42,212 nucleotides of DNA, taken from positions 1-42,212 of the IMG/VR virus record IMGVR_UViG_3300037847_004997; one strand, given 5' to 3'. The notes beneath the pieces were generated by a model. That model was not told the DNA's origin and did not search any database. It saw only the letters and a list, made by a program, of their open reading frames with translations. This document shows, one piece after another, positions 5,830 through 25,584 of the stretch. The first letter of the stretch is position 1. Each line of letters starts with the position of its first letter. This DNA is from a virus. The translations under genes were made by a program, and so were the position numbers.

Positions 5830-5909
5830 AAAAAATAAAAAAATATTTGACAAGATTAAATAAAATCCTTTGGAGAGGATTAGAGAAAACAAGCTTCGGA
5901 AAATTTTAA
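5826..5909 (+). CDS. Possible 27-aa basic peptide
   Basis: The helicase stop codon overlaps an ATG (ATGA at 5826-5829) that opens a 27-codon frame ending four bases before the next ATG at 5914. The product is strongly basic and amphipathic (MKKIKKYLTRLNKILWRGLE...). The coupled start and exact fit into the gap support it; the tiny size argues for caution. No function can be given. Confidence 0.4.
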   Translation: MKKIKKYLTRLNKILWRGLEKTSFGKF

Positions 5910-5913
5910 AACT

Positions 5914-6249
5914 ATGAAAACAATTTTATTATACATAACAGTTACAGCAACTATATATCACGCTGTACCAGAACAGACAGATGCGACCCCATTTATTACG
6001 GCGTCGAATAAAGTTATTAATAAAGATGCTCCAGGCTCACATAGATGGATTGCAGTTTCAAGAGACCTAGAAAAATTAGGATTTGTATTTGGAGCAAAGG
6101 TATGTGTTGAAAATGCTGGACAAATGAATGGTTATTGGACGGTTCAAGACAGAATGAATAAAAGATGGTCACACAGAATAGATTTTTTAGTTGATGAATC
6201 TATGCGTGGAGGCAAATGGGAAAACGTAAAAATATATTTAGTTGAATAG
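5914..6249 (+). CDS. 3D/RlpA-like double-psi barrel protein
   Basis: A 111-residue protein that reads as a single 3D (three-aspartate) domain, a double-psi beta barrel related to RlpA and MltA. Residues 10-32 contain TATIYHAVPEQTDATPF with Asp23. RWIAVSRDL (44-52) matches the I-A-V-[DS] strand. YWTVQDRMNKRWSHRIDFLV (75-94) carries Asp79 and the R-I-D Asp90. In known relatives this fold cleaves or binds peptidoglycan. Because the domain begins at residue 9-10 there is no room for a full signal peptide, so it would need a holin or act inside the cell. It lies in the replication arm, far from the structural genes. A lysis role is therefore possible but not shown. Confidence 0.6.
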   Translation: MKTILLYITVTATIYHAVPEQTDATPFITASNKVINKDAPGSHRWIAVSRDLEKLGFVFGAKVCVENAGQMNGYWTVQDRMNKRWSHRIDFLVDESMRGGKWENVKIYLVE

Positions 6250-6643
6250 CTTAATTAGAAATAGCAAAGAGGTAAGAAAAACAATAGATTTTACAGGTGT
6301 GCAAAATGGATTGATGCACCCAAGTGATATTGATGCTGTTCTTGAGTTTGATAACGACATTCTAATTTTAATGGAAGTTAAAAAACAAGGCATCGAGATT
6401 CCTGTTGGACAGAAACTATTACTTGAGCGTATTTCACAATCATGGCATACCCCACGAAGCGTGGTGTTAAAAGTAGAATATCTAAATATATTTAAAGACG
6501 ATGAAGACGTTCCTTTAGACCAATGCTATGTCACAGAGTTTTATTTTAATAAAAAATGGCGAGATACTAAAAAACCTGTGAATTTGGTTATGGCTCTAAA
6601 TGTATTAGGGAAAAAATGGAAGAATGAAAAATGTAAATTCTGA
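6242..6643 (+). CDS. PD-(D/E)XK-type nuclease/resolvase-like protein
   Basis: A 133-residue protein with the pattern MHPSDIDAVLEF (25-36) followed by LILMEVKKQG (41-50). This gives Asp31, then Glu45-x-Lys47, and Gln57 in VGQKLLLERI: the D...E-x-K...Q active site of small Holliday-junction-resolvase-like nucleases. I chose the TTG start at 6242, which overlaps the previous gene by 8 bases, because the residues before the first internal ATG (at 6314) look like part of the fold (RNSKEVRKTIDFTGVQNG). It could trim or resolve recombination intermediates. No close named family is certain. Confidence 0.55.
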   Translation: MNSLIRNSKEVRKTIDFTGVQNGLMHPSDIDAVLEFDNDILILMEVKKQGIEIPVGQKLLLERISQSWHTPRSVVLKVEYLNIFKDDEDVPLDQCYVTEFYFNKKWRDTKKPVNLVMALNVLGKKWKNEKCKF

Positions 6644-6866
6644 ATTAGGATTCATACATATTAGTATGGGAATATGCTTTAAACACAATATTAAAGTATA
6701 TCCAATAATATTTAATAGAAAGTATTTAAAGATTGAAATAGATAACAACGGTATAAAAAAACAAGGCACAAAAACATATGACCCAAAAACAGAACAAAAA
6801 GAATTACAACAAAAAATTGCAGAACTTTACAGATTGCTGGCAGAGAGAATACAGCCAGCAAAGTAG
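6624..6866 (+). CDS. Hypothetical protein, 80 aa
   Basis: An 80-residue unknown. The first half is hydrophobic/beta-like (IHISMGICFKHNIKVYPIIF). The C-terminal third is a charged helix ending ELYRLLAERIQPAK. It begins 20 bases inside the preceding nuclease gene; an alternative ATG at 6666 (MGICFKHN) would avoid the overlap. The next gene begins 7 bases after its stop. No domain recognised. Confidence 0.55.
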   Translation: MKNVNSELGFIHISMGICFKHNIKVYPIIFNRKYLKIEIDNNGIKKQGTKTYDPKTEQKELQQKIAELYRLLAERIQPAK

Positions 6867-6873
6867 AGTTTAC

Positions 6874-7170
6874 ATGCTTGATGAAAAACATCTTCAATAT
6901 TTGTTTTACACTTTTGTTGAAATGAATGATGAAGAGTTCATCGAAAATATTGAAGAGATTTTACACTTTGCTGTGTATGTGGTTTATCTAAAAGATATTC
7001 CTACTAAAGAAGTCATGTGTGATGAGGGCCTGATACATGAGCTTGTACATCTACTCAAAAAAAGTACCAGAAACGAGGTTGATTTAGATAAATTAAGAGA
7101 TAATTTCAACAAATTGTTGATTATTCCAAAAAAATTCGTTACTTTACAAAAAAAACAAGGAAATGGCTAA
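6874..7170 (+). CDS. Hypothetical acidic protein, 98 aa
   Basis: A 98-residue acidic, helical protein of unknown function. I place the start at the ATG at 6874 (MLDEKHLQYLF...), 7 bases after the previous stop. A longer frame from 6778 would overlap the previous gene by 89 bases and add a Lys/Gln-rich stretch that looks like out-of-frame reading of that gene. Its stop overlaps the next ATG by 8 bases. No signal peptide, membrane segment or catalytic motif is visible. Confidence 0.6.
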   Translation: MLDEKHLQYLFYTFVEMNDEEFIENIEEILHFAVYVVYLKDIPTKEVMCDEGLIHELVHLLKKSTRNEVDLDKLRDNFNKLLIIPKKFVTLQKKQGNG

Positions 7171-7570
7171 CATTTCTAAACAACCAAAAAAAGAAACGAT
7201 ACTTGATTTAGTAGCTGAATTCAATTCGGCTTTCGGAATTAAGACATCTAAAAAACCTACGCTAGCAACTAGCGAAGATTATAAATTAAAATTCAATTTA
7301 CTCAAAGAAGAGCTTGATGAATACCTTCAAGCTTGTGAAGATGAAAACTTGGTTGAAGTGTCTGACGCTATTATAGATATGTTTTATGTATTATCTGGAA
7401 TAGCTTTATTACATGGAATACAAAACAGGGTTCCTGATATGTTTCTAGAAGTTCACAACTCTAACATGAGTAAACTTGAAAACGGAAAAATATTAAAAAG
7501 AGCTGATGGTAAAATTATCAAAGGTTCTGAATATTTTAAACCTAACCTTAAAAAATTTATAGATGGATGA
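7163..7570 (+). CDS. MazG-like nucleotide pyrophosphohydrolase (PRA-PH fold)
   Basis: A 135-residue all-helical NTP pyrophosphohydrolase of the MazG/PRA-PH superfamily. The metal-binding set E-E-x-x-E...E-x-x-D is visible as Glu49, Glu50 and Glu53 in KEELDEY, then Glu65, Asp68 and Asp72 in VEVSDAIIDMFYVL. The C-terminal part (from about 95: HNSNMSKLENGKILKRADGK) matches the phage subgroup, in which an N-S-N-x-S-K motif follows the helices. Known members hydrolyse nucleoside triphosphates to monophosphates; phage copies may adjust nucleotide pools or signal nucleotides. It is linked to its neighbours by 8-base overlaps on both sides. Confidence 0.8.
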   Translation: MANISKQPKKETILDLVAEFNSAFGIKTSKKPTLATSEDYKLKFNLLKEELDEYLQACEDENLVEVSDAIIDMFYVLSGIALLHGIQNRVPDMFLEVHNSNMSKLENGKILKRADGKIIKGSEYFKPNLKKFIDG

Positions 7571-7799
7571 AAATCTAGAAAGGTTGATAGAGAAAGTTTT
7601 AGGTTATAAAACATGGAGTGATAAAAAGAAGATAGACACTCTTCTGGAATATGACTGTAACATGTACACTAATCTAGGAATAGACTCTACAAAAACACAA
7701 GTTGAAAACGTAAAAAGAAACTCAAGGGCAATATATAGGGCTATATCTAAAGTTAATCCAAAGGTAGGTAAAGACTTCCTTTGGCATATGGATAAGTAA
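7563..7799 (+). CDS. Hypothetical protein, 78 aa
   Basis: Unknown 78-residue protein, mostly helical, mixed charge, with one Cys and several Trp/Tyr. It overlaps the MazG-like gene by 8 bases and ends one base before the next start. It lacks any motif I know. Its place between the pyrophosphohydrolase and phosphoesterase genes suggests nucleotide or DNA metabolism, by context only. Confidence 0.6.
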   Translation: MDENLERLIEKVLGYKTWSDKKKIDTLLEYDCNMYTNLGIDSTKTQVENVKRNSRAIYRAISKVNPKVGKDFLWHMDK

Positions 7800-7800
7800 A

Positions 7801-7971
7801 ATGCCTATAGTAGCCAGAGAACGATATATTCTTACGACGTTTAATCAAATGCACGAAAAATTAAACAATGCGTTTGAGGAGATATCTGACGGCGACTTTG
7901 AAGATTGCAAACAAACAATTAACTCTTTAATACACGATTTAAGAGATGTAAAAAAATCAATGGACCAATGA
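7801..7971 (+). CDS. Very small hypothetical protein, 56 aa
   Basis: A 56-codon gene that starts one base after the previous stop and ends in an ATGA overlap (7968-7971) with the phosphoesterase gene. It fills the gap exactly. The product (MPIVARERYILTTFNQ...) looks like a short helical hairpin: helix, then an acidic turn with EEISDGDFEDC, then a second helix LIHDLRDVKKSMDQ. It may be a small coiled-coil or adaptor protein. No family recognised. Confidence 0.65.
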   Translation: MPIVARERYILTTFNQMHEKLNNAFEEISDGDFEDCKQTINSLIHDLRDVKKSMDQ

Positions 7972-9065
7972 AAAAAGTTTGCTGGATTACACCAGACGAG
8001 GCGAGAGCTTTATCACTGCCCCCAAAACAACCTGAAAAAAACAGAAGGAAGTTCAGGGCTACTCTCGACTTTTTTCAACAACAAGAGTTAAGGAAAATAA
8101 AACATAAAGGAGTTTATGAATATTGCAAAGCAAGAGGCATAGACTTCGATAATGTAAGACAGTACTGGGACAAAACAAAAGAGTACTCGGTACAAGTAAG
8201 ACCAGAAACTGTATCATATACAGATATATCTAAACAAATTATATCTGAAATGAACAAACATTCTCCGTCTTACGAGAAAATAAAAAGAGTTAAATCTAAA
8301 AACCCACACCTGTTGGTTATAGACCCTGCAGATGTACACATAGGAAAACTTGCAACAAGTTTTGAAACAGGTGAAGACTACAATCAAGAGATAGCAGTTC
8401 AAAGGGTTAGAGAAGGTGTAAAAGGGATACTTAATAAATCTTCTGGATTTAACATAGAAAAAATATTATTGATTATAGGTAACGACATATTACATATTGA
8501 TTCTCCAAAGAGAACAACCACATCTGGAACACCACAGGATACAGATGGTATGTGGTATGAAAACTTTTTAAAAGCTAAAAAATTATACGTAGAAATTATA
8601 GAAAAGTTAATTGGGCTGTCTGACGTGCATGTAGTGTATAATCCATCCAACCATGATTATACAAACGGATTCTTTCTGGCTGATGTAATTAAAAGCTGGT
8701 TTAGAAAATGCGCAAATGTTACATTTGATACAAGCATATCACATAGAAAATATTTCAAATACGGAAAAAATCTTATAGGAAGTACACATGGTGATGGAGC
8801 AAAAATACAAGACTTGCCACTGCTTATGGCTGTTGAATCAGCTAAGTCCTGGCATGATACAAAGCACAGGTATTTTTACACACACCATGTGCACCATAAA
8901 ACATCGAAAGATTTTCAAGGAATTACTGTTGAGTCCTTGAGAAGCCCCAGTGCTGCTGATTCATGGCATCACAGGAATGGATATCAACACAACCCCAAAG
9001 CAATAGAAGGATTTTTACATCATCCTGAATTTGGGCAAGTAGCACGTTTAACTCATATATTTTAA
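7968..9065 (+). CDS. Calcineurin-like metallophosphoesterase
   Basis: A 365-residue protein. The first ~110 residues are basic and helical, possibly DNA-binding. They are followed by a metallophosphoesterase domain with its metal ligands in order: DVH (122-124), GND (171-173), NHD (228-230), THGD (273-276) and HHVHH (306-310). The set matches the D-x-H, G-N-D, N-H-[ED], G-H, G-H-x-H pattern shared by Mre11/SbcD nucleases and phosphodiesterases. A DNA end- or hairpin-processing nuclease is the likeliest role given the recombination and nuclease genes nearby; a nucleotide phosphatase is the alternative. It starts in an ATGA overlap. Confidence 0.8.
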   Translation: MKKVCWITPDEARALSLPPKQPEKNRRKFRATLDFFQQQELRKIKHKGVYEYCKARGIDFDNVRQYWDKTKEYSVQVRPETVSYTDISKQIISEMNKHSPSYEKIKRVKSKNPHLLVIDPADVHIGKLATSFETGEDYNQEIAVQRVREGVKGILNKSSGFNIEKILLIIGNDILHIDSPKRTTTSGTPQDTDGMWYENFLKAKKLYVEIIEKLIGLSDVHVVYNPSNHDYTNGFFLADVIKSWFRKCANVTFDTSISHRKYFKYGKNLIGSTHGDGAKIQDLPLLMAVESAKSWHDTKHRYFYTHHVHHKTSKDFQGITVESLRSPSAADSWHHRNGYQHNPKAIEGFLHHPEFGQVARLTHIF

Positions 9066-9067
9066 TT

Positions 9068-9244
9068 ATGTACGATTGGTCACAACTTTCTTTTACCATT
9101 AGATGGCCTCACCAAGGGATTATGGTTGGCTATGAATTCTATGAACCTACTCACGAAGAAAACTATATAACAATAAAAGCACACTTGTTTTTTTTGACAG
9201 TCAATTATGAATTTGGTTATGGAGAATCTCCATACGATGAATAA
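9068..9244 (+). CDS. Very small hypothetical protein, 58 aa
   Basis: A 58-codon gene starting 2 bases after the phosphoesterase stop. The product (MYDWSQLSFTIRWPHQG...) is aromatic-rich, with alternating patterns suggesting a small beta sheet, and ends in an acidic YGESPYDE tail. It is the last gene before a strong terminator, so it would close the long early transcript. Function unknown. Confidence 0.6.
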   Translation: MYDWSQLSFTIRWPHQGIMVGYEFYEPTHEENYITIKAHLFFLTVNYEFGYGESPYDE

Positions 9245-9251
9245 AAATTTG

Positions 9252-9259
9252 TATATTTG
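9252..9259 (+). promoter_or_regulatory. TAnnTTTG box, possible promoter
   Basis: TATATTTG at 9252-9259 fits the flavobacterial -7 consensus TAnnTTTG and lies in the 100-base gap between the 58-aa gene and the 153-aa gene. No TTG is found at the usual upstream distance, and a terminator lies between this box and the next gene, so it may be non-functional or give a short transcript. A second TATATTTG at 9335-9342 is too close to the ATG at 9346 for an ordinary leader. Confidence 0.25.
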
Positions 9260-9308
9260 TATATAGCGATATATTCTTATGTATCCCTGTCTTGTTTTCA
9301 TCGAAAGG

Positions 9309-9335
9309 CCCTCATATCCCATGAGGGTTTTTTTT
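9309..9335 (+). terminator. Rho-independent terminator
   Basis: CCCTCAT (9309-9315) pairs perfectly with ATGAGGG (9321-9327) around a 5-base ATCCC loop, and eight T follow (9328-9335). This is a textbook intrinsic terminator on the + strand. It closes the early transcript after the 58-aa gene. The last two + strand genes (9346-10255) therefore need read-through or their own promoter. Confidence 0.9.
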
Positions 9336-9345
9336 ATATTTGTGT

Positions 9346-9807
9346 ATGGAGTTTCCCTTCGATAAATTGTTTATTAATAAAGAAGCCACAGATGATGAAA
9401 TCGTTGTGATAAGACAAATATTGAGGAGCATTGATGTACCAAAATATTTAATCAACAACTTTTTGTATTTGCATATTGGTGAAGATGGTACTATTGAGTT
9501 ACTTTCATTTGACAATAATTATGTGTATATTGCTTCAAAAGAATTACAGGTAACAAATAAAATGGCTGTGCAATACTTGAAGGACAGAGATAAAATCGAC
9601 CAAGAGGTAAACAAGTTGCTATACTGGGCAGGATTAAATAACATTAAAAAGTATGTTCCTGTTATTTCTGAAGAAACTTTAGAAACAGGTACTTCTAAAA
9701 AATACGCCAACTTTAATGTGTACGCTAACTCTATTGAAAACGCTACTCTTGTGGCAACTTTAATGAGCAACAAAGATTACTTGTACATGGAAGATGTAGA
9801 TGCGTAG
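9346..9807 (+). CDS. Hypothetical protein, 153 aa
   Basis: Unknown protein of 153 residues, acidic, with a helical first half and no recognised motif. I start it at the ATG at 9346 (MEFPFDKLFINKEA). An upstream TTG at 9340 adds only two residues and lies in a TAnnTTTG box. It follows the strong terminator by 10 bases and overlaps the next gene by 8 bases, so these two genes form a separate pair at the end of the + arm. No signal peptide or membrane segment. Confidence 0.65.
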   Translation: MEFPFDKLFINKEATDDEIVVIRQILRSIDVPKYLINNFLYLHIGEDGTIELLSFDNNYVYIASKELQVTNKMAVQYLKDRDKIDQEVNKLLYWAGLNNIKKYVPVISEETLETGTSKKYANFNVYANSIENATLVATLMSNKDYLYMEDVDA

Positions 9808-10255
9808 ATATTCAAAAAAAAAGAGACAGATAACTAGGTTTAAAAAAACCAAAGTTGATGGCATTGAGTTTCAGTCCAAACTTGAATCTCACATGTACTT
9901 ATTACTGAAAGCTCACAAAATAGATTCTGGCTACGAATCAACAAAGTTCACAATCATTGACGGATTCATGGCTGATTTTAGTAGCTATGAAAAAACCCCA
10001 ACTAAAAAATTCTTACACGACAGAGGACATAAAAAGATTTTACCCATAACATATACGCCTGATTTTGTCGATACACAAAACCCTCCTCGTTACATAATAG
10101 AATGTAAAGGAAATCCAAACGAAAGGTTTCCTTTGGTCTGGAAGCTATTTAAACGCTATATAAACCTAAATGATTGGAGAACAGACCTATTTGTACCAAG
10201 AAATCAAAAAGATTGCTTAGAAGTCATTAAAATAATAAAAGAAAAATATTATTAA
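9800..10255 (+). CDS. DUF1064-like PD-(D/E)XK endonuclease
   Basis: A 151-residue nuclease-like protein. VDGIEFQSKLESHMYLLL (19-36, Glu29) matches the opening D-G-x-x-F-x-S-x-x-E of DUF1064-type phage proteins. TYTPDFV (84-90, Asp88), IIECKG (99-104, Glu101 and Lys103) and WKLFKRY (114-120) supply the D...E-x-K...K active site. Proteins of this kind are considered Holliday-junction resolvase-like endonucleases that clear branched DNA before packaging. It is the last + strand gene; its stop codon abuts the stop of the convergent 2209-aa gene with no spacing. Confidence 0.65.
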   Translation: MRRYSKKKRQITRFKKTKVDGIEFQSKLESHMYLLLKAHKIDSGYESTKFTIIDGFMADFSSYEKTPTKKFLHDRGHKKILPITYTPDFVDTQNPPRYIIECKGNPNERFPLVWKLFKRYINLNDWRTDLFVPRNQKDCLEVIKIIKEKYY

Positions 10256-13200
10256 TTATTTTTTTGGTCTAGGGTCGTTTCCAGTTAGCCTGATGTATTC
10301 TAAATCTGGTTTACTACTCAAAAAGTATTTATCAATATTTCTTTCAAGTATATCTGCATATCTGTCTATGTCAGCTCTGGGTCCTGGAGCAATCACCGCC
10401 AAAATTCTAAGCTTATAAAGAAGTTGTGTTGCTTTTTGTAAATCTTCTCTCATTGGCTCATTATGAGCTGTAACATAACCAATCTTATCAGGAAAAGCTC
10501 CACCTGATTTTGTTAAGTACCCATCCTTTAATTGACCTGCTCTTCTTATACCATCAATAGACTCAATTGCAATACCGTAATACCCTGCGTTTTTTGAAAT
10601 CATATTAATAACACCGTCAGTGGTTCCGCTTTTTTTCAGGTCTGCAGAAATAAACTCACTTATATCAGTTCCAAGACCTTCATTAAGCTCTCTAATTATT
10701 AAATCTTCAAAAATATCAGGAATAGGTGCAGGTTGTAGTGTTGATATTAAATCTTTAGCAGTTGACTCAATAACACTATAAAGTTTTTTTGCGCTAAACT
10801 TATTTTCATATTCAAGCTCGTATTTACTTATAGCATTTCCAAAGGCATCCTGCGCTGTATACATGTTTTGAAAACCTATAAGTTGATTATACGCCTCTAA
10901 TGATTCAGCTCCTGGTATTCCTTCTGGAAAATTAGTAGGGTCAAAGTTTTCTGCTGCTTCTATTATAGGTAGTCCTAAGCCATATCTATTTTCTCCTAAA
11001 AACCTTGTTACCCCACCCCACTCTTCAATATCATCATCATCAATACCCATCAAAAGACCATAAACGCCAACCAGTCCTGTGGCATACGCAACATTACCTA
11101 AATTTTTTATACCACCATAAGTAATAATTTCAGCAGCTTTACCTCTAAGCCTTGCTGCAGCCATTTCTTTTTGGTCTAACGGCATATCAGGGTCTAGTAA
11201 AATACTATACGCATTAATTGCATCTTGTTTTGCGTTTATTATAAATCTATGAAAAGGAAATAAAACTTTAGTTAATACTACGTTTTTGTCAATCATTGTT
11301 CCTGAATTTCTATTCATATACACTCCAGCCTCTCCTGATTTTGAAGTTTGTCTCATTGTTTCAGAAACTCTAGCGTCTGCATGATTGATTGCGTCTATGT
11401 TTGGATTTGCATTTTGTTTTTGCCACCAAGCATCTAAATCAGAGATGTCTTCTCCTTTAGATAGCATGTAGTCTAAATAGTGAGCTTCAAAAGCAGTGTT
11501 TGCAGCTGCAGCATCAGCATTTGCTAAAAATAAATCTAATGCTGTTTCATTGGAACTAGCAAGAAGATTTACAAACTTATCAAAAGCCATATCTCCAGCC
11601 TTCAAAACATTTTTAAATACTTTTTGTACTTTGCTATCATTAGGGTCTAAATTAAAAGCTGTTAAATAATATGACGGACTGTAGTTTTTAGTTAAATCTA
11701 AAGATAACTCTGACCTTTTTGCGTTTCTCAATCCAGTTCTTGATTTCATATATATATTTGACAACCTACCATTATTGCTGTTAAGTCCTAGTTTGTCTAA
11801 AACCATAGCGCCAAAATTGCTCGATAAATTTCCATTATTATATCCAGCTGTGAATGTAATAAACTGTGCGCTTCTTTGTCTAAGATAATTTCTTGCTCTA
11901 TCATTTCTAATCAAAGGTGATGTACCAGCTAATGCACTTGCAAACTGACTAATTGGCTGTGTAAATCTTGTAAGAGCTACAGCACCAACAGTACCATACA
12001 TAAGGTTTCCTAGTTTTGGAAGTTTTGCTCCTTTCGACGATGTAATATCTATAGATGTTCGATTGAAGTCTCTAACTTGCTCTTCAAAATAATTAAGTCT
12101 GTTTTGAAGACCAATCATCAACATGTCTTTTACCTGACCATCTTCAAAAAGATTACCAAACTCTTCGCTTTTAGAAACCATATCCAAAATTAAAAAGTTA
12201 TTATAAGCTTTTGAATCCATCATTACTCCAGAGTATGCATTGTATGCATTATCAAAATACATTCCTAAATCCAACCTTAGTTCATCACTTAAATTTTCTG
12301 GCCTTGTAACATCTTTTAAATTATTAGCATTGACTTGACCTTCTAATTTACTTACACCTAAATAATCATTTTTAACTATACCTCTTTCGTTTCTTAAAAA
12401 TCCTGGAGTATATGTTCCTCTAGAATAGAAAAATTGATTTTCATTATTACCTTTATAATCAGACATTCTTCTTTTGGTGTCATCAAATGTTCCATCGAAT
12501 CTACCTGCTATTCTATCAATAGCATTTAAGTTAAATGGCAATGCGTTTTTAGCAACGTCAGCAAAAGAATTTGCTTGGTATAATTCTAATCTATTTACTA
12601 TTGTACTTAACGTGTTGAATTTTGCTAAATACTCATCTTTTTTAACGCTGAATTGACCCTTAATACTTTCATAATCTTTTCTTGCTAAATCAAGTTCTTG
12701 TAGTATTAAGTTTTTTGCTCTAATAAATTCTAAGTCTACACCATTAATATCTAATTCACCACTTTCTCTTTTTAACATATGCAGTAAATACATTTCATAT
12801 GAGTTTTCAAGACTATTTGGATTACCCATATCTTTATATCTATGCTTCCACTTGCTTCTATGCTTATTATCTTTTGCCCAAGCTTTATAATCTTGAATCC
12901 ATGAGGCTTTATCCTGTTTTTTATGCAGACCACCTAATTGTTCGGCCTCTGCAGACAACCTTAATCCTTCTCTTACTACATCAGCTAAAGGACCTCTAAT
13001 GTTTTCGTCTTTAATTATGGTGTTTAAAAGCTGGTCTAAAGTGTATGATTCTTGACTTGCGTATAAATAATTTGAAAAGTTGATTACTAAAGCAGCAAGG
13101 CTTTTACCCCCAACATTTATTTTTAATTTACTATCACCAGCTAACGCTGTAATTTTACCTATAATATCTTGAGCATCAAGCATTGCTTCTACCTTTCCAA

Positions 13201-16200
13201 ACTTAGGAACTCTTCCATCTTTGAGGTCATTAAAATATTCAATGAAAATATCAAACTGGTCTCCCATTCTGTTTTTGAGATTACCATCCTTGTTAAGGTT
13301 TTCTAATCTATTAAAAATAGATGCGTTTCTTTTATTGTTATCATCTTCTTGACTTATTGGTATAGGACCTTTAGTTTCATCTGGAGATTCTTGAAGAGGC
13401 AACTCTCCTATTGTCACTTGTCTCTGACGCGCTTGATTAATAGAACTATTTAAATCAAACTCATTTCTTTCTGAAGGCGAAACTACATTATATACAATAG
13501 GTTCAACACCAAAAGTTCCAAAAGAGTTGATATCATTAGCTTCTCTTTTGCCTTTTCTTATGTCTTCGAGGTAAAGCTCTCCTGCTCTTATCATCACCTC
13601 TTCGCTTTCATAATCAACTTTTACTTCAAAATTTTCAAGACCTTTTTCTTTTGCTTCATTGGTTTGTTCTTCCAATATTTGTTTTGCAGCCTTGTCTTTG
13701 TATTGATTTTGAACTACTTCTTCAGCAAAGTAAATACCAAGCTCTGATGGATATTTAGAAAGCATGTCATTTGTTTCTGCTCTTAATTTTTCCATCTCTG
13801 TTTCAGCTGCATCTCTTGCGCTAGGAGATGCGTCTTGATTGCTTCTTACATCATTCAAAGCAACCATTCTTTGAAAGTTTTTCATGAACAAAATTTTATC
13901 TCCGTCAGTCATTTCTAAAAGAAGTTCAGCTCTTCTTTGTTCATGCTTTCCTATTTGAAACTCTATATCTGACAATCCTGACAAAAGAGTTTGATACTCT
14001 AAACTATTTTGTAAATATTTTTCTTTGTCCTTAATTCTTTTGTCTTTAAGAACCCTTTCTTCAAACAATTTTATTTCGGCAGATTTTGTCATGTGGTCAA
14101 AGTGAATGTTTCCGCTTTGCCCATCTAAAACCTCTAAGTTTTGTAATATAATATTGTCTCCAGCTTTTCTTATTTTTGGATTTTGTAGCTGACGTATAGC
14201 TACACCACTTCCATAAGAACTTATTGTTGTAATAATACCAGTCTCTAACATTATTTTATTTAGCTCCTGTTGATTGTACTCTTTAACTCCAGAAACAACA
14301 TCAATCATATAATTATTAAATGCAATAAGACCTTCTTCTTTAAGTTCGTTTTTTAATAACTCTTTGTCTACCCCAAAAGTTCTATTCAGTGTTTTAATAA
14401 TACCATTGTTGAATGACTTTGTGTATTGAGTAACAAATTTGTTTAATTCAGTTTTGGACATTTTATCCATAGCTGTTTTGTTACCCATTAATCCTTTAAA
14501 GTATTTATATGTAAACAAAGAAGTAACAGCTACTTCCTGACCACTCTTAAGTAAAGAAAGCATTCTCTTTTCAGCTCCTGACATATCTAGTATAGCTTGT
14601 TCTTCTGGGGATATGTACTCGCCTCTTTTTTTCTTTTCTAATACTCCGTGTTTTAAATCATCATAATTTCTTAGTGACCCACCATATCCACTAACTCCCA
14701 CTGCAATCATTCCTAGTTTTGGGTTTAATACAAACAGTGCCGTAGTAGCTACACTACCTCCTACAGGTTCAGCAGTCTTGGCAAAAAATTCACCTACACT
14801 ACCTGAATCCATAATGTCTCCTTCAAACTGCGGAAGGTATCTGTCTTTTATATCTTTAAAAACTTCAGGATTTAAAGGGTTGACGTGTTCAAGACCTGGC
14901 AATCCGCCTAATCCATAAACTAAAACACTTGCTTGTTCTGGCTTTAATCCCATGCCGACTAATGAATCATATACAATATAGTTAGCATTAACAAGTATTT
15001 CTTGACCACCAAATACAACTGATTGAGCCCAGTTTTCTACATTTTCAATACCAGCTCCAATTGATTCACCTAAAGGGTAATCGAATCTAAAAGACTCTTG
15101 TTTAGCTACAAGACCTTTTGCTTGGTCTATATAATACCCTAGATTCCCATAGTCTTCTCCATTCCCAACTTCTAATGTTTGTCTTCCAGCTCTAACATCC
15201 ATAACGAAATCGTAATCATATATGTTGTTCAAAAGTTCTGCGTATGAAGATGCTCTACCGTTTATTTTGATGCCATCTGTAGGAACGTTAGCTTCATTGA
15301 ATCCCATTTTTTTAAACTCATTCATCAATTCAGGAGTAGCATTTTGAAATAGATTATATCTATTTGTTGCTCTCAAAAGATGGGTAATACTATTAGCAGC
15401 AGTTATTTTTTTTGCTTGCAAGTCTCGTCTTAAATGATTTATTTTTTGTTGTAAGTCACTTGTTGTTTTTATGTCAAAAATTTCATAATCTTTATCCAAT
15501 AACAACTGAAAGTCTCTATCATTTAAAGGTTGTACGTTCTTGCCTAGTTTTTGATTTATCTGTTCGTATAAATATTTTTTATCGCTGCCTGGTGATTCTC
15601 TAAACTGCTCAAATGCATTTAAATGAATTTCCATTTTGCTATAAAAATCATGCTCTCCATCCATATTGAGGGCATGCACCATAGCATTACTTAAATCTTC
15701 TTCATACTTACTTATATTGAAAGTTCCATTATCAAAATAATAATCTTGTGACCTGCCAAATAAAGAAGATAGAAAAATTGTATTGACGTCTTTTGGCTGT
15801 GTAAAATTAGCTGTTTGTCTTGCTATAAAGTCAGGTAGTCTATCCTCTGGTGTTAAAGAAAAGGTAGAAACTAAGTTCTCACTCATTACCTTCTCTCCTT
15901 TGATGAGTAAATCTTGAAACTCAACTAAAGCTTCTTTCATTAAAGTTTCTACTGGCTTGCTTTGTGGGTCTAAAGCATTTAACCCTGCCAGCCTTGATTG
16001 GTAGCTTGGTGTATAAAGTTGTAATTGAATTGGTTGACCCTCACCCTGCATAGATACCATTATTTGGTCTGAACCGATACCCATAGGTGTAGCCTTAATA
16101 CCATAAGCCTGAAACCTTTGGTTTATAACTTGTGCTGCTTCCTCTTCGCCCATTGATATAAACGAATTGTTTAATCCATAAACACTACGTCTAAAAAGCA

Positions 16201-16885
16201 TTTCACCTTGAAACAATGGGTTTGGATTACTGGCTTTGTAAAGCTTTTTCCATGACCCTTCTCCAAAAGCAATCGCAGCGTCTTTATCATCACCAAACTC
16301 TACAACTTCGCCTCTTTTTTTAGCTTCATTGTATGCTTGCTTCCAAGGTTTATCCATGTATTTAGTAACCCATGTTCCGTCTTTGTCTTGAAATAATGTT
16401 GGGAATCCAACCCAAGAGCCATTAGAAAGCTGTTCTGCTCTCATTAAATGCGTGGAATGTCTAGTGTCTCCGTCTTCGTCTTGATAAGTGTATTGTCCTA
16501 CTCTTGCTTTAGCTTGTGGTGGGTCAATCTTTATGGGATTTAAGTCCAATGAAGAACTTTCTTCTTCCGAAATTAAGGGTGATACCGTAGGAGTATTGCC
16601 GACTTGATTTTTTTTTTCAGGGGGCTGGTTTTCAATTTGTGGTGGTTGGTCTACATTTTTTAGTAATGAGGCATATATCATTTGAATTTTTGCATCGTCA
16701 GCAGCTCCTGAACCAGACTGCATATGAATTGACGGCAATAAAGCTTTAAAGTTTTTGTTGTTTACAAAATTAGCTGCATCACTCTTTGACAAAACTTTTC
16801 CGTTTTGAGCGTACATATCTATTAAAAACTTTTCAGCTTTTGCCTTATCTATAAGTGGGTCCTGTACTGGTGTGTTCACAATCAT
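10256..16885 (-). CDS. Giant virion (ejection) protein, 2209 aa, gp16-like position
   Basis: A 2209-residue protein, last of the late arm. Residues 128-214 contain a conserved phage segment: VGQYTYQDEDGD, STHLMRAE, WVGFPTLFQDKDGTWV, GEVVEFG and AFGEGSWKKLY. Most of the middle is helical and charged. Gly/Ala-rich hydrophobic segments (such as LMYGTVGAVALTRFTQPI and VAYATGLVGVYGLLMGI) could insert in membranes. Size, position after two smaller virion proteins and membrane-active segments suit the T7 gp16 type of internal protein that forms the DNA-ejection channel. No complete lytic transglycosylase or peptidase motif is visible. The frame is intact over 6.6 kb. Confidence 0.65.
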   Translation of the reverse strand: MIVNTPVQDPLIDKAKAEKFLIDMYAQNGKVLSKSDAANFVNNKNFKALLPSIHMQSGSGAADDAKIQMIYASLLKNVDQPPQIENQPPEKKNQVGNTPTVSPLISEEESSSLDLNPIKIDPPQAKARVGQYTYQDEDGDTRHSTHLMRAEQLSNGSWVGFPTLFQDKDGTWVTKYMDKPWKQAYNEAKKRGEVVEFGDDKDAAIAFGEGSWKKLYKASNPNPLFQGEMLFRRSVYGLNNSFISMGEEEAAQVINQRFQAYGIKATPMGIGSDQIMVSMQGEGQPIQLQLYTPSYQSRLAGLNALDPQSKPVETLMKEALVEFQDLLIKGEKVMSENLVSTFSLTPEDRLPDFIARQTANFTQPKDVNTIFLSSLFGRSQDYYFDNGTFNISKYEEDLSNAMVHALNMDGEHDFYSKMEIHLNAFEQFRESPGSDKKYLYEQINQKLGKNVQPLNDRDFQLLLDKDYEIFDIKTTSDLQQKINHLRRDLQAKKITAANSITHLLRATNRYNLFQNATPELMNEFKKMGFNEANVPTDGIKINGRASSYAELLNNIYDYDFVMDVRAGRQTLEVGNGEDYGNLGYYIDQAKGLVAKQESFRFDYPLGESIGAGIENVENWAQSVVFGGQEILVNANYIVYDSLVGMGLKPEQASVLVYGLGGLPGLEHVNPLNPEVFKDIKDRYLPQFEGDIMDSGSVGEFFAKTAEPVGGSVATTALFVLNPKLGMIAVGVSGYGGSLRNYDDLKHGVLEKKKRGEYISPEEQAILDMSGAEKRMLSLLKSGQEVAVTSLFTYKYFKGLMGNKTAMDKMSKTELNKFVTQYTKSFNNGIIKTLNRTFGVDKELLKNELKEEGLIAFNNYMIDVVSGVKEYNQQELNKIMLETGIITTISSYGSGVAIRQLQNPKIRKAGDNIILQNLEVLDGQSGNIHFDHMTKSAEIKLFEERVLKDKRIKDKEKYLQNSLEYQTLLSGLSDIEFQIGKHEQRRAELLLEMTDGDKILFMKNFQRMVALNDVRSNQDASPSARDAAETEMEKLRAETNDMLSKYPSELGIYFAEEVVQNQYKDKAAKQILEEQTNEAKEKGLENFEVKVDYESEEVMIRAGELYLEDIRKGKREANDINSFGTFGVEPIVYNVVSPSERNEFDLNSSINQARQRQVTIGELPLQESPDETKGPIPISQEDDNNKRNASIFNRLENLNKDGNLKNRMGDQFDIFIEYFNDLKDGRVPKFGKVEAMLDAQDIIGKITALAGDSKLKINVGGKSLAALVINFSNYLYASQESYTLDQLLNTIIKDENIRGPLADVVREGLRLSAEAEQLGGLHKKQDKASWIQDYKAWAKDNKHRSKWKHRYKDMGNPNSLENSYEMYLLHMLKRESGELDINGVDLEFIRAKNLILQELDLARKDYESIKGQFSVKKDEYLAKFNTLSTIVNRLELYQANSFADVAKNALPFNLNAIDRIAGRFDGTFDDTKRRMSDYKGNNENQFFYSRGTYTPGFLRNERGIVKNDYLGVSKLEGQVNANNLKDVTRPENLSDELRLDLGMYFDNAYNAYSGVMMDSKAYNNFLILDMVSKSEEFGNLFEDGQVKDMLMIGLQNRLNYFEEQVRDFNRTSIDITSSKGAKLPKLGNLMYGTVGAVALTRFTQPISQFASALAGTSPLIRNDRARNYLRQRSAQFITFTAGYNNGNLSSNFGAMVLDKLGLNSNNGRLSNIYMKSRTGLRNAKRSELSLDLTKNYSPSYYLTAFNLDPNDSKVQKVFKNVLKAGDMAFDKFVNLLASSNETALDLFLANADAAAANTAFEAHYLDYMLSKGEDISDLDAWWQKQNANPNIDAINHADARVSETMRQTSKSGEAGVYMNRNSGTMIDKNVVLTKVLFPFHRFIINAKQDAINAYSILLDPDMPLDQKEMAAARLRGKAAEIITYGGIKNLGNVAYATGLVGVYGLLMGIDDDDIEEWGGVTRFLGENRYGLGLPIIEAAENFDPTNFPEGIPGAESLEAYNQLIGFQNMYTAQDAFGNAISKYELEYENKFSAKKLYSVIESTAKDLISTLQPAPIPDIFEDLIIRELNEGLGTDISEFISADLKKSGTTDGVINMISKNAGYYGIAIESIDGIRRAGQLKDGYLTKSGGAFPDKIGYVTAHNEPMREDLQKATQLLYKLRILAVIAPGPRADIDRYADILERNIDKYFLSSKPDLEYIRLTGNDPRPKK

Positions 16886-19538: not shown

Positions 19539-19572
19539 CAAATATACAAAATTTACATGTAGCTCTTGACAA
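19539..19572 (-). promoter_or_regulatory. Promoter candidate for the ejection-protein genes
   Basis: On the - strand, TATATTTG (19546 down to 19539) fits TAnnTTTG exactly, and a TTG lies upstream at 19572-19570 with 23 bases between, the upper limit of the flavobacterial -33/-7 spacing. It sits in the 33-base gap ahead of the 251-aa gene. It would allow separate transcription of the three ejection-protein genes. Confidence 0.45.
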
Positions 19573-20278
19573 CCTCGCTGTCTACAGCGAACAACTCAAC
19601 GAAGGAGTTGCTGTCATTTGTCAGTTTTACTTTTGCAAAATAACCTCTAAGACCAAAAGACTCTGCTTCTGGGTTTTTAGCTATGAAACAAAAGTTGCCT
19701 ACACTAGGTGTATTTGTACTTGTGTTTGTTGTTATTATGTTGTCTGTTATAGTAGAAATTGAACCTATAATTTTTGTGCTTCCGTCATTGAAATACAGAA
19801 CATCCGACTCTGATATTTGGTTTGGTATGTTGTCTGTAAATCTATAGCGATTAGCAGTAGGTATTTCTTGCAAATTACCTAATCCTTGTATAGATAATTC
19901 ATTAAAATTTAAAGTATCTGAACTTAATCTTCTAATGTAAGCATGTTTAAATCCTTCTTTGTCTAAGAACTTACCTGCAGGCACAACACCACTTTCTAAG
20001 TCTGTATCTACTGTTGCTGTCCAATTAGAGCTGTTAGTCTCTAACTTTAAATTTTTAAATATTTTTATATCAGATGGGCCTTCATTTACTGCAAACTCTA
20101 CATAGCAACCATATTTTTGATTGTAGAAACTTGTTCTTGCTCCATCATCATGTATGTATAGGTTACCTTCACTAAAAGTGTAAAACCTATTACCTAATCT
20201 TGTCATCCAGTCAGGCTCATAAGAATGGAATGAAGTCCAGCCGTTATTTAATTCGTCAAATGTTATTGTTGTTGCCAT
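19553..20278 (-). CDS. Nozzle/stabilisation protein terminal segment as a separate gene, 241 aa
   Basis: A 241-residue protein beginning ITFDELNNGWTSFHSYEPDW (5-24), then NRFYTF, GNLYIHD, SFYNQKYG and NEGPSDIKIFKNLKLE. This run (F-x-E-x-x-x-G-W-x-S-F-x-S-Y-x-P, then N-x-F-Y-[TS]-F, L-Y-x-H, FY, N-x-x-P-x-x-x-K-x-F-K) is, as I remember it, the block that follows the beta-propeller part inside crAss-like gp10/stabilisation proteins. Here it stands alone. Its first base overlaps the last base of the 1768-aa nozzle gene, so it is coupled to it. It probably assembles with that protein in the tail nozzle. Confidence 0.55.
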   Translation of the reverse strand: MATTITFDELNNGWTSFHSYEPDWMTRLGNRFYTFSEGNLYIHDDGARTSFYNQKYGCYVEFAVNEGPSDIKIFKNLKLETNSSNWTATVDTDLESGVVPAGKFLDKEGFKHAYIRRLSSDTLNFNELSIQGLGNLQEIPTANRYRFTDNIPNQISESDVLYFNDGSTKIIGSISTITDNIITTNTSTNTPSVGNFCFIAKNPEAESFGLRGYFAKVKLTNDSNSFVELFAVDSEVVKSYM

Positions 20279-23200
20279 TATCCATCATCTTTTATGACAG
20301 GCCATGTGCTCCCTGCAGGAGTATAGCCCATGTCGTTTAACATTTTTGTAACCCAATACAGATAATAGTATTCCCACTTATCAAATCTATCTGTTGTACT
20401 GCCTGGTTTGAAAGGAGCTTGACTATCATCTATACTTCCTCCAGTTTTAATTGTATCTTCAATATCAAACTCTACTCTTAAAACATTTTGAGAAAATTCA
20501 GATGACAAGCCGTTTGTTCCTGAATAATTTCCATCTCCGTTAGAAACAGCTTGTAAAAATAGTTTAAAATCATTATCTCCATCGACTTGAAAAACACCAC
20601 CCCTATAATAATTAGAGTTACCAGCATTTTTAGTTGATATAAAATCCTTAAACCCTCCTGTGGGTGGATTCCCAGTTCCTATAACGTCAGTTTCGTAAGT
20701 CGTCGTTCTAGCTTCAGAATCAGTGAAACTGGTGTCATGGTAACCATTCTCTGCTTCATCCTGAAAGACTAACACTATAACATTTTCTGCATCAGAAGGA
20801 AAATTTCCTGCACCTAGCGCTTCTGGTCCTCTTAACGCTTGAAACGTTCTCTCTCTTTGAACAGGAGTGCCCCCTAAATGGTTTGTATTACTAACTGTTA
20901 CATGTGAGTCATACTCTGTAGAGCCATTGTCTGATGACCCAGGCGCATATATATTTTGTATCTCTGCTTTTAAAGAGTTTGAAGCCATTGCATTCAAAGC
21001 GTCTCCTGTATCGTTCATAGAACCAGATGAGTCAAAATAGAAATATATATAAGTATCAACTGTTAAAGCTAAAGCTTGTGTCGAAACAGTACCCACTGCT
21101 TTACATGCCCCATCTCTAGTAACCTCATAGATAAACGAATCATTTAAAGTTGTTCCTTCATTGTGCTGATATGTTATTGTGTTGTCAGAATTAACTGTTG
21201 CTGTTCCTGAAGTAGGAGGTGTTTGAATAGTCAAAGTAAATGGAGAGGGTACTGTGTCGTTTTGTAAGACATCAATAACCACACTACCTCCGTTTGTAAT
21301 TCCTGTTATAGTATCAGGAACTATATTAGGAAGTGCATCCACATAGTTGTAAACTATATATAAGTTATCTGCAGGTGACGATATATCAAAATCAAAGGTT
21401 ATTTTATTTACTTCATTGTCTGAATCAGATTCGCTTGTGTCTATATCAGGGTAGGTTGCTAAAGCTTTTATTTGGTCTACAGTTAGTCCGCTTGCTGGGC
21501 TTATTAAATAACCTAAACTATTACATATATTAAAATCTCCTGTGTGATAGTTTAATTGTTTTACTGAACGGACAGTTATTACGTCTCCGTCTGCAGGAAC
21601 ATAAGTGCTTCCCACATCACCAGTAAATGATTGGTTTCTTGTAAGACCACTTGCTAAAAAAACATCATCTTCAGACCAATGTGCATTTGTTCCTACTTGA
21701 TATTTGTTTTGTATCGTTTGATTCGCCTCATCTGTATCGTTGATAACAATCTGCGTTACTTTTCTTTGTGCTGCTACAGGACAACCAAGTGTTATATCAC
21801 CTGTTGAAGTTGCACCTGAAGTTACTGTTACTGTAGCAGTTGGATGTGTTGAAAGAGCACTTGATGTTACAGGAAAACTAATAGAGCCTGCATTCGCTAC
21901 AAATCCACTTGTACTTGGATATGTTATACCATAATAATCAACTTTTACAGTCCACATCATGGCGCTATTAGACTGAAAGTTATTCCATGAAACAGTAGCT
22001 GTTCCTGGCGTTGTTCCTAACTTATAAACAAAACTGTATGTGGTTCCAGATTCTATTGTTTTTGTAACGATGGAGCCGCAATCATACACTAAAGCTTCGG
22101 CAGGCTTATCATCTGTGTTCATAGACAACACATATTGATGGTGTTTTGGGTCAAACCCACCTACATTATAAGCGTCTTTATACTGCCATAGAGTGTTTTT
22201 AAAATATGATTTCATTCCATAATATGATATTGGTGTAATACCATCATTACCAAGTCTTAAAACAGTTCCTCTGTTTGCATCTGTAAAGTACATTCTACCT
22301 GCGTAAAAAGCAAAACTTTCTGGATTTTCAGAAATACCATATTCACCAGAAAAAGGAACTTCCTGTCCCAAAACAGATTCAATTTTTGTTAAAGATGCGC
22401 TTCCGTCAGCTGAATGTAAAAGTGATTTTCCAAATAAAACTTTTGACACCCTGTCCTCTTGAAATATTATTAAATCCTGCTCACGTGAAAATATTTTTTG
22501 AACACTACCGTAGCTTTGGTCTAAATTTTTTCTAATACCTCTTGATGCATTAAACTCATTGAGCGCATTGTAAGAACTCATTTGGTTTATAGTAGAAGAG
22601 TGAATTAATGTAGTTTCTAGTTTTCTTCTTTTATACCCTTCTAATAAAGCTATATTTGGCCTCAAATCTAAATCTAAAAATGGAGAGTTTCTCTCATCTC
22701 TAATCTGAATACTTTCAACTCCATTTCCAAAAACAAAACAGTTACCTGTTGATAGTGTAAGTTTTGCATCTTGCGACGATGTTTGATTTTGTTTATTTCC
22801 TAAATGGAATCCACCTGCTATTTCAAAACACTCTTCTGTTTCGTAAAAAATTTCTGATTCATTATCGTCTGGGTCTGTTTCAAAAACAATAATACCATTT
22901 ACTAGTATTAATGATATATTAAATTCGCCCCAACCTCTTTCTAGTTTTCTTGTAAACTCTGTGCTTTTAACATTAACAGTATGTCTTATACCATTACCGT
23001 TGCTGTTCGTCGCGCCTTCTGTTCCAAATTGCAAATGAAACTGATTATCAGGGTCTGCATAATATGTTTGGACAACTCCATCAATTTCAGGCTTTTCCCA
23101 TGCTGTTTCAGCTATTAAAAACTTTTCAAAACCAGACATAGTGTCGTCACCTACGTAAGAGTCGCCTGAAACAAATTCTTCATTATAGTATCTTCCATCA

Positions 23201-25584
23201 TCTCCATCAGAGTCTGCTCCTTCCCATGCTTCAAACGCAATTTTAATTCTACTACCTATACCTATGGTAAGGTGGTTATATACTGTGCTGCCACCAGAAT
23301 CTCCTTTTACTTGCGCTAATCCAAACTCATTATCTACAGGAAGAGTCCGATTTACATGCCCTCTACATGAATTGCTCAAGCCCCAAGGAACATGGTCAGA
23401 ACCATTGTATTCTGCAAAATTATTAGGGTCAAAATCCATTTTAAATCCAACTGGTTTTATTTTCATAAATACACCAGGTATTTCTTTTATTGGATTATCT
23501 GCTGCATCTCTATTGCCTTCTATCCAACCCTCATCTGGGTCGTCATTATCAAACCTCTTAACCTCTTCATCCATTTTTGTTTTAGTAGCAACTTCTAAAA
23601 CCTTAACTTTTACCTCTCTATTTAGATGACCATTGTCATCAGATTTGACTAAAAGATTAGTGCCTTCTTCAACTTTACCTATATTGTTACCAGTTAACAA
23701 AATCCACCTATACAGCCCATCCTCATAAAATATTGTACTGTATAAGGTGAAGTGTAGTTTTTTAGTCATTTTTATAAAAAACTTATACCTATCTGCCCAG
23801 TATGGTGGCTTATGTTTTACAGTAATCTCTGCTTGATTTAAATCAATAGAGTTTTCTACTGGTATAAAAATTTCAGGCGAATTGTTTCCTTCTTTCACTA
23901 CAGAAGGTAAAACCGTACTATATCTTCCGTATTCATCTAAATATACAAGTCCAAATTCATAAGAACGATTACTTTTTAAAGAAAGCGTGTTAGAGGATTC
24001 TCTAAGTGTAAACACAGAGTCATCTGTAAATTTAAATTGCTCTTCTTTTGTAGAAGTATCGCCATCTGCTGTTGAAGAGTCAGAAGGGGTGTTGTCAATC
24101 GTATAGGTTATCTTTGGAGCTTTTATTGTAATACTTGTCGATGTACTACTAGCTAAAGTAAAACTCCCATATTGTGTGGTTACACTGTTTGGCGGAGGTG
24201 TAGTATTTACCAAAGAAGCGAAATTGTTTGAGAGTGCAGATAAAAGTTGTTGTAAATCTGCGCTATCATCAAACGCTGCTGCATTTGCATAAGTTTCCGT
24301 AAGCTTTACGGCGTTATCAAGCTCTGCTGTTCCGTTAAAGTGTGATGGGTCTGTAGATGTGTCTTCATCGGATTCTAGGTCTGCTCCAACGTATAAGTAA
24401 TAATTTTTTTCTAATTCAACATTAGTTAAATCCAAAGTCATTTCAGTTTTATCAGAACTGAAGGTTACTGTTCCTATATTACCTTCAAATGTTGTAGATT
24501 TTTTTTCTGCAAAATAATTGGTAGCTATGAAGTCAGCATCACTCTCATTTTCTTTTAAGTCATACTGTGTTGTTATGTTTCCAAAAACAATTCTGTTTTC
24601 AATAAACTCTTGTGCTTTTGCCGTGAGAGGTACGTCATCAAATATTCTAGATATTTCATCATCTGGCAATGCTTTATATATTTTCTTATTACTAAAAACT
24701 ACGCTTTTCTCTATCTCATCTATAAAGCCACTTTCTTTTTTATTTAAAGTTTCAGCTATGAAACAAGTAGGGTTCTGGGTCATTTTAAAAACAATCTGAA
24801 TGTCAGTCACCCTTTTATCTCCAGTATTGAATTTGATTTGATATGAATTAAATATATTGACCATAGCTTTATTTTCCATGGTCGCATAATCAAAATCAAA
24901 ATCACCTGGCGTAAATTGATAATTAGAAAAAGATGATAACGCAGAGTACTCGCCATCTAAATATTTATACCTATACGCAAATGCAAAAAAGTTTTCTTTA
25001 ACTGAATTTTCAAAAGCTGTAGGTGTGTTAAAAGGTGTAACAAGTGGAGCAAAACGTGGAGGTTTCTTGTATAGACTTATATCGTCTTCCACAAAGTTGT
25101 TTTCTCCAAAAGTTTTTGCTCTTGTGATATTTACACTTCTAGGTGGATTTAATCCGTCTGTAAAAAGCAACAGCTTCTTGCTATCATATGTGTTTAAAAT
25201 AATGTTAGCTCCTGTTATTTTATAATCCTTATTAAAGTTTAAAACTTGTTTTGAAGGCTCTCTTGTGTCTCTTAATACAGTTGCTGTAACTGTATTTTTT
25301 GCATCATATTCATATATAAATGAATGCCCTAAAGAGTTTACAACAAACCAATATATTTTTTCATTAGCTTCATCATTTACAGAGCCTATTGTTATAGGAT
25401 TGTTAGATGTCTGATTGAATGTAAGTTGTTTATTTCCTAACGTGTTTTCAATTGCTCCAGCGTCTGACCCCTCTGTGTTAAGCACACGTATGTTAAGGGC
25501 GTCTGTATATCCACCTTTTGGAACAAGCCTTTCATCAAGGTCTTTGTTCATTTTACCGTTAGAAAAATTGTTGTTTATTTTCAT
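20278..25584 (-). CDS. Tail nozzle/stabilisation protein with C-terminal Ig-like and VWA domains
   Basis: A 1768-residue protein. It opens NNFSNGKMNKDLDERLVPKG, then ALNIRV and GAIENTLGN, the typical start of the tail-hub/stabilisation proteins (P22 gp10 and T7 gp12 class) of Bacteroidetes podoviruses. The body to about residue 1165 is beta-rich, with propeller-like strands (FAFYAGRMYFTDANRGTVLR; VGGFDPKHHQYVLSM). After that, about 600 residues appear added: beta domains, a cadherin/Ig-like unit at roughly 1404-1505 (VVIDVLQNDTV, TITYQHNEG, DSFIYEV) and a von Willebrand A domain from about 1509 with the metal site DSSGS (1518-1522) and VIVLVFQDEAENG near 1602. The VWA domain could bind a surface ligand. 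Confidence 0.75.
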   Translation of the reverse strand: MKINNNFSNGKMNKDLDERLVPKGGYTDALNIRVLNTEGSDAGAIENTLGNKQLTFNQTSNNPITIGSVNDEANEKIYWFVVNSLGHSFIYEYDAKNTVTATVLRDTREPSKQVLNFNKDYKITGANIILNTYDSKKLLLFTDGLNPPRSVNITRAKTFGENNFVEDDISLYKKPPRFAPLVTPFNTPTAFENSVKENFFAFAYRYKYLDGEYSALSSFSNYQFTPGDFDFDYATMENKAMVNIFNSYQIKFNTGDKRVTDIQIVFKMTQNPTCFIAETLNKKESGFIDEIEKSVVFSNKKIYKALPDDEISRIFDDVPLTAKAQEFIENRIVFGNITTQYDLKENESDADFIATNYFAEKKSTTFEGNIGTVTFSSDKTEMTLDLTNVELEKNYYLYVGADLESDEDTSTDPSHFNGTAELDNAVKLTETYANAAAFDDSADLQQLLSALSNNFASLVNTTPPPNSVTTQYGSFTLASSTSTSITIKAPKITYTIDNTPSDSSTADGDTSTKEEQFKFTDDSVFTLRESSNTLSLKSNRSYEFGLVYLDEYGRYSTVLPSVVKEGNNSPEIFIPVENSIDLNQAEITVKHKPPYWADRYKFFIKMTKKLHFTLYSTIFYEDGLYRWILLTGNNIGKVEEGTNLLVKSDDNGHLNREVKVKVLEVATKTKMDEEVKRFDNDDPDEGWIEGNRDAADNPIKEIPGVFMKIKPVGFKMDFDPNNFAEYNGSDHVPWGLSNSCRGHVNRTLPVDNEFGLAQVKGDSGGSTVYNHLTIGIGSRIKIAFEAWEGADSDGDDGRYYNEEFVSGDSYVGDDTMSGFEKFLIAETAWEKPEIDGVVQTYYADPDNQFHLQFGTEGATNSNGNGIRHTVNVKSTEFTRKLERGWGEFNISLILVNGIIVFETDPDDNESEIFYETEECFEIAGGFHLGNKQNQTSSQDAKLTLSTGNCFVFGNGVESIQIRDERNSPFLDLDLRPNIALLEGYKRRKLETTLIHSSTINQMSSYNALNEFNASRGIRKNLDQSYGSVQKIFSREQDLIIFQEDRVSKVLFGKSLLHSADGSASLTKIESVLGQEVPFSGEYGISENPESFAFYAGRMYFTDANRGTVLRLGNDGITPISYYGMKSYFKNTLWQYKDAYNVGGFDPKHHQYVLSMNTDDKPAEALVYDCGSIVTKTIESGTTYSFVYKLGTTPGTATVSWNNFQSNSAMMWTVKVDYYGITYPSTSGFVANAGSISFPVTSSALSTHPTATVTVTSGATSTGDITLGCPVAAQRKVTQIVINDTDEANQTIQNKYQVGTNAHWSEDDVFLASGLTRNQSFTGDVGSTYVPADGDVITVRSVKQLNYHTGDFNICNSLGYLISPASGLTVDQIKALATYPDIDTSESDSDNEVNKITFDFDISSPADNLYIVYNYVDALPNIVPDTITGITNGGSVVIDVLQNDTVPSPFTLTIQTPPTSGTATVNSDNTITYQHNEGTTLNDSFIYEVTRDGACKAVGTVSTQALALTVDTYIYFYFDSSGSMNDTGDALNAMASNSLKAEIQNIYAPGSSDNGSTEYDSHVTVSNTNHLGGTPVQRERTFQALRGPEALGAGNFPSDAENVIVLVFQDEAENGYHDTSFTDSEARTTTYETDVIGTGNPPTGGFKDFISTKNAGNSNYYRGGVFQVDGDNDFKLFLQAVSNGDGNYSGTNGLSSEFSQNVLRVEFDIEDTIKTGGSIDDSQAPFKPGSTTDRFDKWEYYYLYWVTKMLNDMGYTPAGSTWPVIKDDG

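Follow-up and report, generated by a model that had tools for sequence, protein, structure and literature searches.

The tail muzzle protein encoded in the window (the whole 42,212-nt stretch of viral DNA analyzed here) carries, on alignment with its one-piece relatives, approximately 612 additional residues at a break within an otherwise continuous chain, and this extension ends in a VWA-like domain with a MIDAS-type metal site. Comparison with homologs indicates that the outermost module has been swapped or lost repeatedly among split muzzles. We consider it somewhat probable that the VWA-like domain is part of an exchangeable, probably cation-dependent, adhesin-like module on the tail muzzle; the anatomy is observed directly, and the binding role we infer.

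The initial annotation had described a 1768-aa open reading frame with a nozzle part reaching to about residue 1165, followed by beta domains and a cadherin/Ig unit. Its frame, strand and coordinates (20278–25584, minus strand) were correct, the conserved muzzle part extends to about residue 1155, and the beta region and a significant Big_9 domain were found where expected. The features of the locus are as follows:

20278–25584, minus strand: muzzle protein, 1768 aa, crAss-type tail muzzle core plus extension (Pfam crAss_MUZ, phrog_14478)
22120–25584, minus strand: conserved muzzle core, residues ~1–1155 (alignment with Tenacibaculum phage Gundel gp60)
21340–22119, minus strand: beta (Ig-like string) region, residues 1156–1415 (nearly all beta by AlphaFold)
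21088–21330, minus strand: Big_9 bacterial Ig domain (PF17963), residues 1419–1499 (Pfam E 7e-8)
20281–21075, minus strand: C-terminal VWA-like (MIDAS-type) domain, residues 1504–1768, 265 residues (invariant D-S-S-T-D, AlphaFold, Foldseek)
21019–21033, minus strand: MIDAS motif 1, D1518-S-S-G-S1522 (DxSGS invariant in 30 aligned members)
20845–20847, minus strand: putative MIDAS Thr, T1580 (ERT; invariant in 30, Ala in L058)
20758–20760, minus strand: putative MIDAS Asp, D1609 (FQDE; invariant in 30)
20276–20280, minus strand: TAATG overlap of the muzzle stop codon and the MUZ_C start (from the sequence)
19553–20278, minus strand: detached muzzle C-terminal subunit crAss_MUZ_C, 241 aa (Pfam PF25729, E 9e-12)

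The start of the 1768-aa protein matches the crAss muzzle family PF25731 above the Pfam cut-off (E 1e-10), and the virion structural protein family phrog_14478 (E 1e-276) spans residues 4 to 1493, ending where the VWA-like domain starts. The core is 96% identical to that of locus L003 and 61% to that of L005. The beta region, modeled by AlphaFold as almost all beta (pLDDT 84.8), is the fastest-diverging segment (mean pairwise identity 0.44 vs 0.54 for the core), and Big_9 reaches its curated cut-off (33.7 bits vs 23.6). In a Foldseek analysis of all 619 residues of the extension the beta domains dominated, and most matches were to Ig-string adhesins and glycoproteins. The predicted viral structure A0A516LFG0 in BFVD is 46% identical to the extension, so similar proteins have already been deposited.

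Portal, terminase, and further structural and tail-fibre genes surround the muzzle gene. In the window the genes run in the order terminase, portal, capsid, ring proteins, muzzle, as they also do in elemoA and MW202828; phi13:2 shows a consistent part of this order. The closest isolates by muzzle sequence are the Cellulophaga phages phi13:2, 18:3, 19:3 and 46:3, whose matches cover 76% of the protein at ~36% identity; next come Gundel, elemo and a Manatee Spring podovirus. The phage is best read as Pachyviridae/Pervagoviridae-like, a crAss outgroup. Phage phi13:2 has been handled as an outgroup of the Crassvirales (PMC10172136). Elsewhere in the window, positions 37771–42099 encode a 1442-aa tail-fibre protein with a C-terminus related to long-tail-fibre distal subunits, which is probably the main host-recognition fibre, and positions 10256–16885 hold a 2209-aa open reading frame that ends the structural operon, has no Pfam or PHROG match and, from its position, may encode an ejected cargo protein.

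That the extension sits where the muzzle gene is itself broken in two, with the conserved C-terminal domain made as a separate protein, goes beyond the initial annotation. The window muzzle aligns with the one-piece Gundel gp60 up to window residue ~1155 (Gundel ~1152), and the MUZ_C frame aligns with residues 1157–1382 of the same Gundel protein and with residues 1245–1469 of elemoA gp25 (34%); in crAss001 gp44, PF25729 lies at residues 1244–1333 of a single chain. Because these alignments place both halves on one chain, they show the ~612 residues, together with a stop and a start codon, as an insertion within a chain that is continuous elsewhere. The break falls between the motifs HQYVLSM and TITFDELNNGWTSF, which read as neighbouring strands, probably with a hairpin turn between them. 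The TAATG junction would be typical of translational coupling, and in homologs the gap between the muzzle and MUZ_C genes is mostly 0–16 nt.

The window protein resembles crAss001 gp44 (PF25731, PF25729; PMC10172136) in its homologous N-terminal part, its place after the ring proteins, its MUZ_C domain and the Ig-like domains hung on a propeller chain, but gp44 is a single 1371-aa chain without a Big_9 or VWA-like domain, whereas the window chain is split with ~610 extra residues at the break. A hexamer with a gate and the crass fold are known for the crAss001 muzzle only (PMC10172136). Gundel gp60, Flavobacterium phage elemoA gp25 and Cellulophaga phage Calle_1 gp005 share the homologous core and MUZ_C but are one-piece chains that lack the extension. 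Closer in organization is Cellulophaga phage phi13:2 (gp120/gp121), with a split muzzle, MUZ_C as the next 241-aa gene, and a core followed by a beta region and a Big_9/cadherin unit; it differs in ending in ~150 other residues, without a VWA-like domain. With MUZ_C off the main chain in the window, as in phi13:2, the window muzzle is, from its alignments, a split variant homologous to the crAss-type muzzle family and not a canonical one-chain member.

Splitting and extension go together among the relatives. A separate MUZ_C gene lies downstream in 37 of the 39 extension-bearing loci tested, some of which are near copies of each other; L004 and L048, the two exceptions, both end before the gene could be complete. 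The extension was present in every split muzzle examined and absent from four one-piece muzzles (Gundel, elemoA, Calle_1 and crAss001), which agrees with the earlier view that such domains are not normal in nozzles and led us to reject the idea that the extension is a standard part of all of them. The MW202828 muzzle is also split, and there an extra 183-aa gene, annotated as a putative glycosidase, lies between the muzzle and MUZ_C genes (L071, 12659–13210). An assembly error was rejected as an explanation of the split, which is common to many independent contigs and to deposited isolates. The split falls late in the chain, in a propeller-like part near the ring-joining end, so that a distal position of the extension is not assured.

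The 265-residue C-terminal domain was modeled with AlphaFold on a 30-member alignment with high confidence (pLDDT 91, pTM 0.90) and adopts a predicted α/β Rossmannoid fold of alternating strands and helices, in the order β1-α1-β2-T-β4-α-β5-α-β6-α. The MIDAS-type residues come in the VWA order, with DxSxS placed after strand 1, the Thr after strand 2 and the final Asp after the strand NVIVLVF; the antiparallel β3 and α2 of a classical VWA domain, between strand 2 and the Thr, appear to be absent from the model. Foldseek analysis against the PDB identified as top match the Mn-bound I-domain of integrin CR3 (E 0.058, sub-significant, TM below 0.5), and VWA or I-like domains, including 1ido, complement C2a, PilB and the vWFA domain of an Aeromonas adhesin (9das), account for approximately 11 of the top 50 matches; legumain-type proteases and other Rossmannoids also appear among the sub-significant matches. 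Sequence searches of Pfam, NCBIfam, PHROGs and the PDB returned no significant match to a VWA family. Profile comparison with 36 genuine Bacteroidota VWA domains gave a local match, confined to MIDAS motif 1 and in register at DxSxS, with an HHalign probability of 8–17% and a score of 25.5 vs 13.4 ± 2.7 for column shuffles; this score was reached by 0 of 60 shuffles of the window alignment and 1 of 60 of the A5 alignment. HHalign in global mode did no better than shuffles. As the structural and profile matches are sub-threshold, we name the domain VWA-like, and not VWA, on the combination of its motif, its predicted secondary-structure order and these matches.

An intact metal site had been proposed in the initial annotation, and the residues cited for it are present: DSSGS lies at residues 1518–1522, FQDEA supplies D1609, and the five MIDAS-type positions (D1518, S1520, S1522, T1580 and D1609, with T1580 and D1609 assigned by position) are invariant in 30/30 aligned homologous domains. 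The claim of VWA family membership fared less well, the structural and profile matches being sub-threshold. The aligned domains come from viral contigs and genomes, share 35–97% pairwise identity and form 24 clusters at 90%; the chance of five given positions all falling within the 30 invariant columns of 265 is ~1e-5. One further member beyond the 30, that of L058, has Ala at the Thr position. With a mean pairwise identity of 0.55, against 0.54 for the muzzle core, the domain has not evolved more quickly than the core, although within the closest pair the core is the better conserved of the two (0.96 vs 0.88 for the domain).

Among 296 Bacteroidota genomes the domain was found in one, and tblastn searches with the short-form domain gave no match in plasmids or in the phage collection, which contains no isolate with the domain. 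Recent acquisition from a host, with odd composition, was considered and dropped, given that single occurrence and a segment GC and GC3 like those of the core. At the edge of a contig from a Chitinophagaceae MAG, one gene (L062, 3–1196) joins Big_2 to the short VWA-like domain; the genes downstream of it are bacterial housekeeping genes, and the edge may be that of a prophage.

The endings of related muzzles vary widely. In the window group a long VWA-like domain follows Big_9, and in L051, L066, L067 and L068 a short VWA-like domain comes straight after the beta region. The L007 group has a Gly linker and a short Cys module without a VWA-like domain, phi13:2 and MW202828 have other endings that also lack one, and L043 and L058 carry additional repeats or what may be a second VWA-like domain. 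In L058 (~5706–6917), a 2450-aa muzzle contains, besides the C-terminal domain, a second, internal VWA-like candidate, MDVLFLVDYSSLSGS, for which no significant Pfam match was found. In a muzzle-core tree built by careful search from 25 rows, the L007 group nests within the VWA group as the sister of the window pair (91/93), phi13:2 pairs with L067 at 100/100, and Calle pairs with L051 at 98/94; Gundel and elemoA are long branches with less certain exact places. On this tree VWA presence requires at least 6 changes, tip type 8 and split state 3. Constraining the VWA-bearing muzzles to one clade was rejected (p about 1e-68), as was constraining the one-piece muzzles together (p 4e-5). These comparisons show the outermost module as swapped or lost repeatedly among split relatives, which fits a surface-binding role. 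A short VWA-like domain also ends a 376-aa fibre-like protein on a 94-kb contig (L052). This protein and its neighbour (7473–10205) share an N-terminal domain and Gly-rich GSGGVVVGG-type repeats, but the neighbour ends in an apparent NHL-like propeller, making them a fibre-like pair with exchanged ends.

The distal part of the crAss001 muzzle has been proposed to touch the cell surface, and the muzzle to gate ejection, for which the gate must open (PMC10172136). By homology with the hexameric crAss001 protein, about six copies of the module would be displayed outside the channel in the window phage. The VWA-like domain would bind Mg or Mn and, through the bound metal, an acidic group of a host-surface protein or glycoprotein. 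The muzzle module could thereby make a second, close-range contact after that of the tail fibre, and this contact could be part of what triggers the muzzle gate to open. Two observations speak against a receptor role: the VWA-like domain shows no more divergence than the core, which is not typical of receptor-binding domains, and the genome has a separate tail-fibre gene.

The metal site of integrin I-domains binds ligands through a divalent cation, and the I-domain of CR3 (1jlm/1ido) is the best structural match and shares the DxSxS-T-D site; the phage domain differs in lacking β3/α2 and in having large inserts in its long form, and the match is at E 0.058. VWA modules at the ends of type IV pili adhere or sense contact, as in PilB (PMC8179133) and PilY1 (PMC8806160). 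The likeness to these proteins, a VWA-type MIDAS domain as the modular end of a surface structure, is a comparison of how they work only: they belong to cellular pili, have VWA domains detectable by sequence and sit on a non-homologous carrier, and for PilB both ligands and metal binding have been measured. As a caution, the PilB metal site is dispensable for binding two ligands in vitro (PMC8179133). Halovirus VWA/MIDAS proteins are encoded beside AAA ATPases and outside the structural module, a different setting (PMC7911831). In a search of open-access full text, we found neither a published VWA domain in the tail muzzle of a phage nor a description of a split muzzle.

VWA domains elsewhere serve protein–protein assembly, and the phage domain might be assembly or gating hardware, its copies packing against one another or against the detached MUZ_C and the metal site locking the split muzzle or the gate with no host binding. 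The constant co-occurrence of extension and split, and a conservation equal to that of the core, are in keeping with such a role; we nevertheless consider it unlikely, as split muzzles exist with wholly different outer modules and no VWA-like domain (the L007 group, phi13:2 and MW202828), close sisters swap the domain, and it also ends an unrelated fibre-like protein. A somewhat smaller chance attaches to a Rossmannoid metal-site domain outside the VWA family, such as a divergent hydrolase or binding fold, with a convergent likeness to DxSxS. The missing Pfam, NCBIfam and PDB sequence matches and the legumain-type proteases and other Rossmannoids among the sub-significant folds would suit it, but DxSGSM, the Thr and the Asp are invariant and follow β1, β2 and β4 in VWA order, VWA/I domains provide the top structural match and ~11 of the top 50, and the profile match is in register at the MIDAS motif.

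Strings of beta and Ig domains are common decorations of phage structural proteins, and Ig domains occur in several PHROG structural and tail families, so that the extension could be imagined as a general stalk or spacer with a purely structural metal site and no specific host binding. We regard this as very improbable: a spacer needs neither five invariant metal-site positions across 35% identity nor repeated exchange of modules.

MIDAS domains of this kind are familiar on cells and pili, and the muzzle is the gate for DNA and protein ejection in crAss-like phages. Going further, we tentatively propose, with somewhat less than even confidence, a lineage of tailed phages that uses an integrin-like, MIDAS-dependent adhesin as the host-contact module of its muzzle, with gene splitting as a recurrent event that frees a chain end for module exchange. 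A metal-site adhesin module on the gate protein would be a testable candidate for the surface contact that opens the gate, and the link between splitting and exchange suggests a simple route by which a core tail part may become a platform for exchangeable binders.
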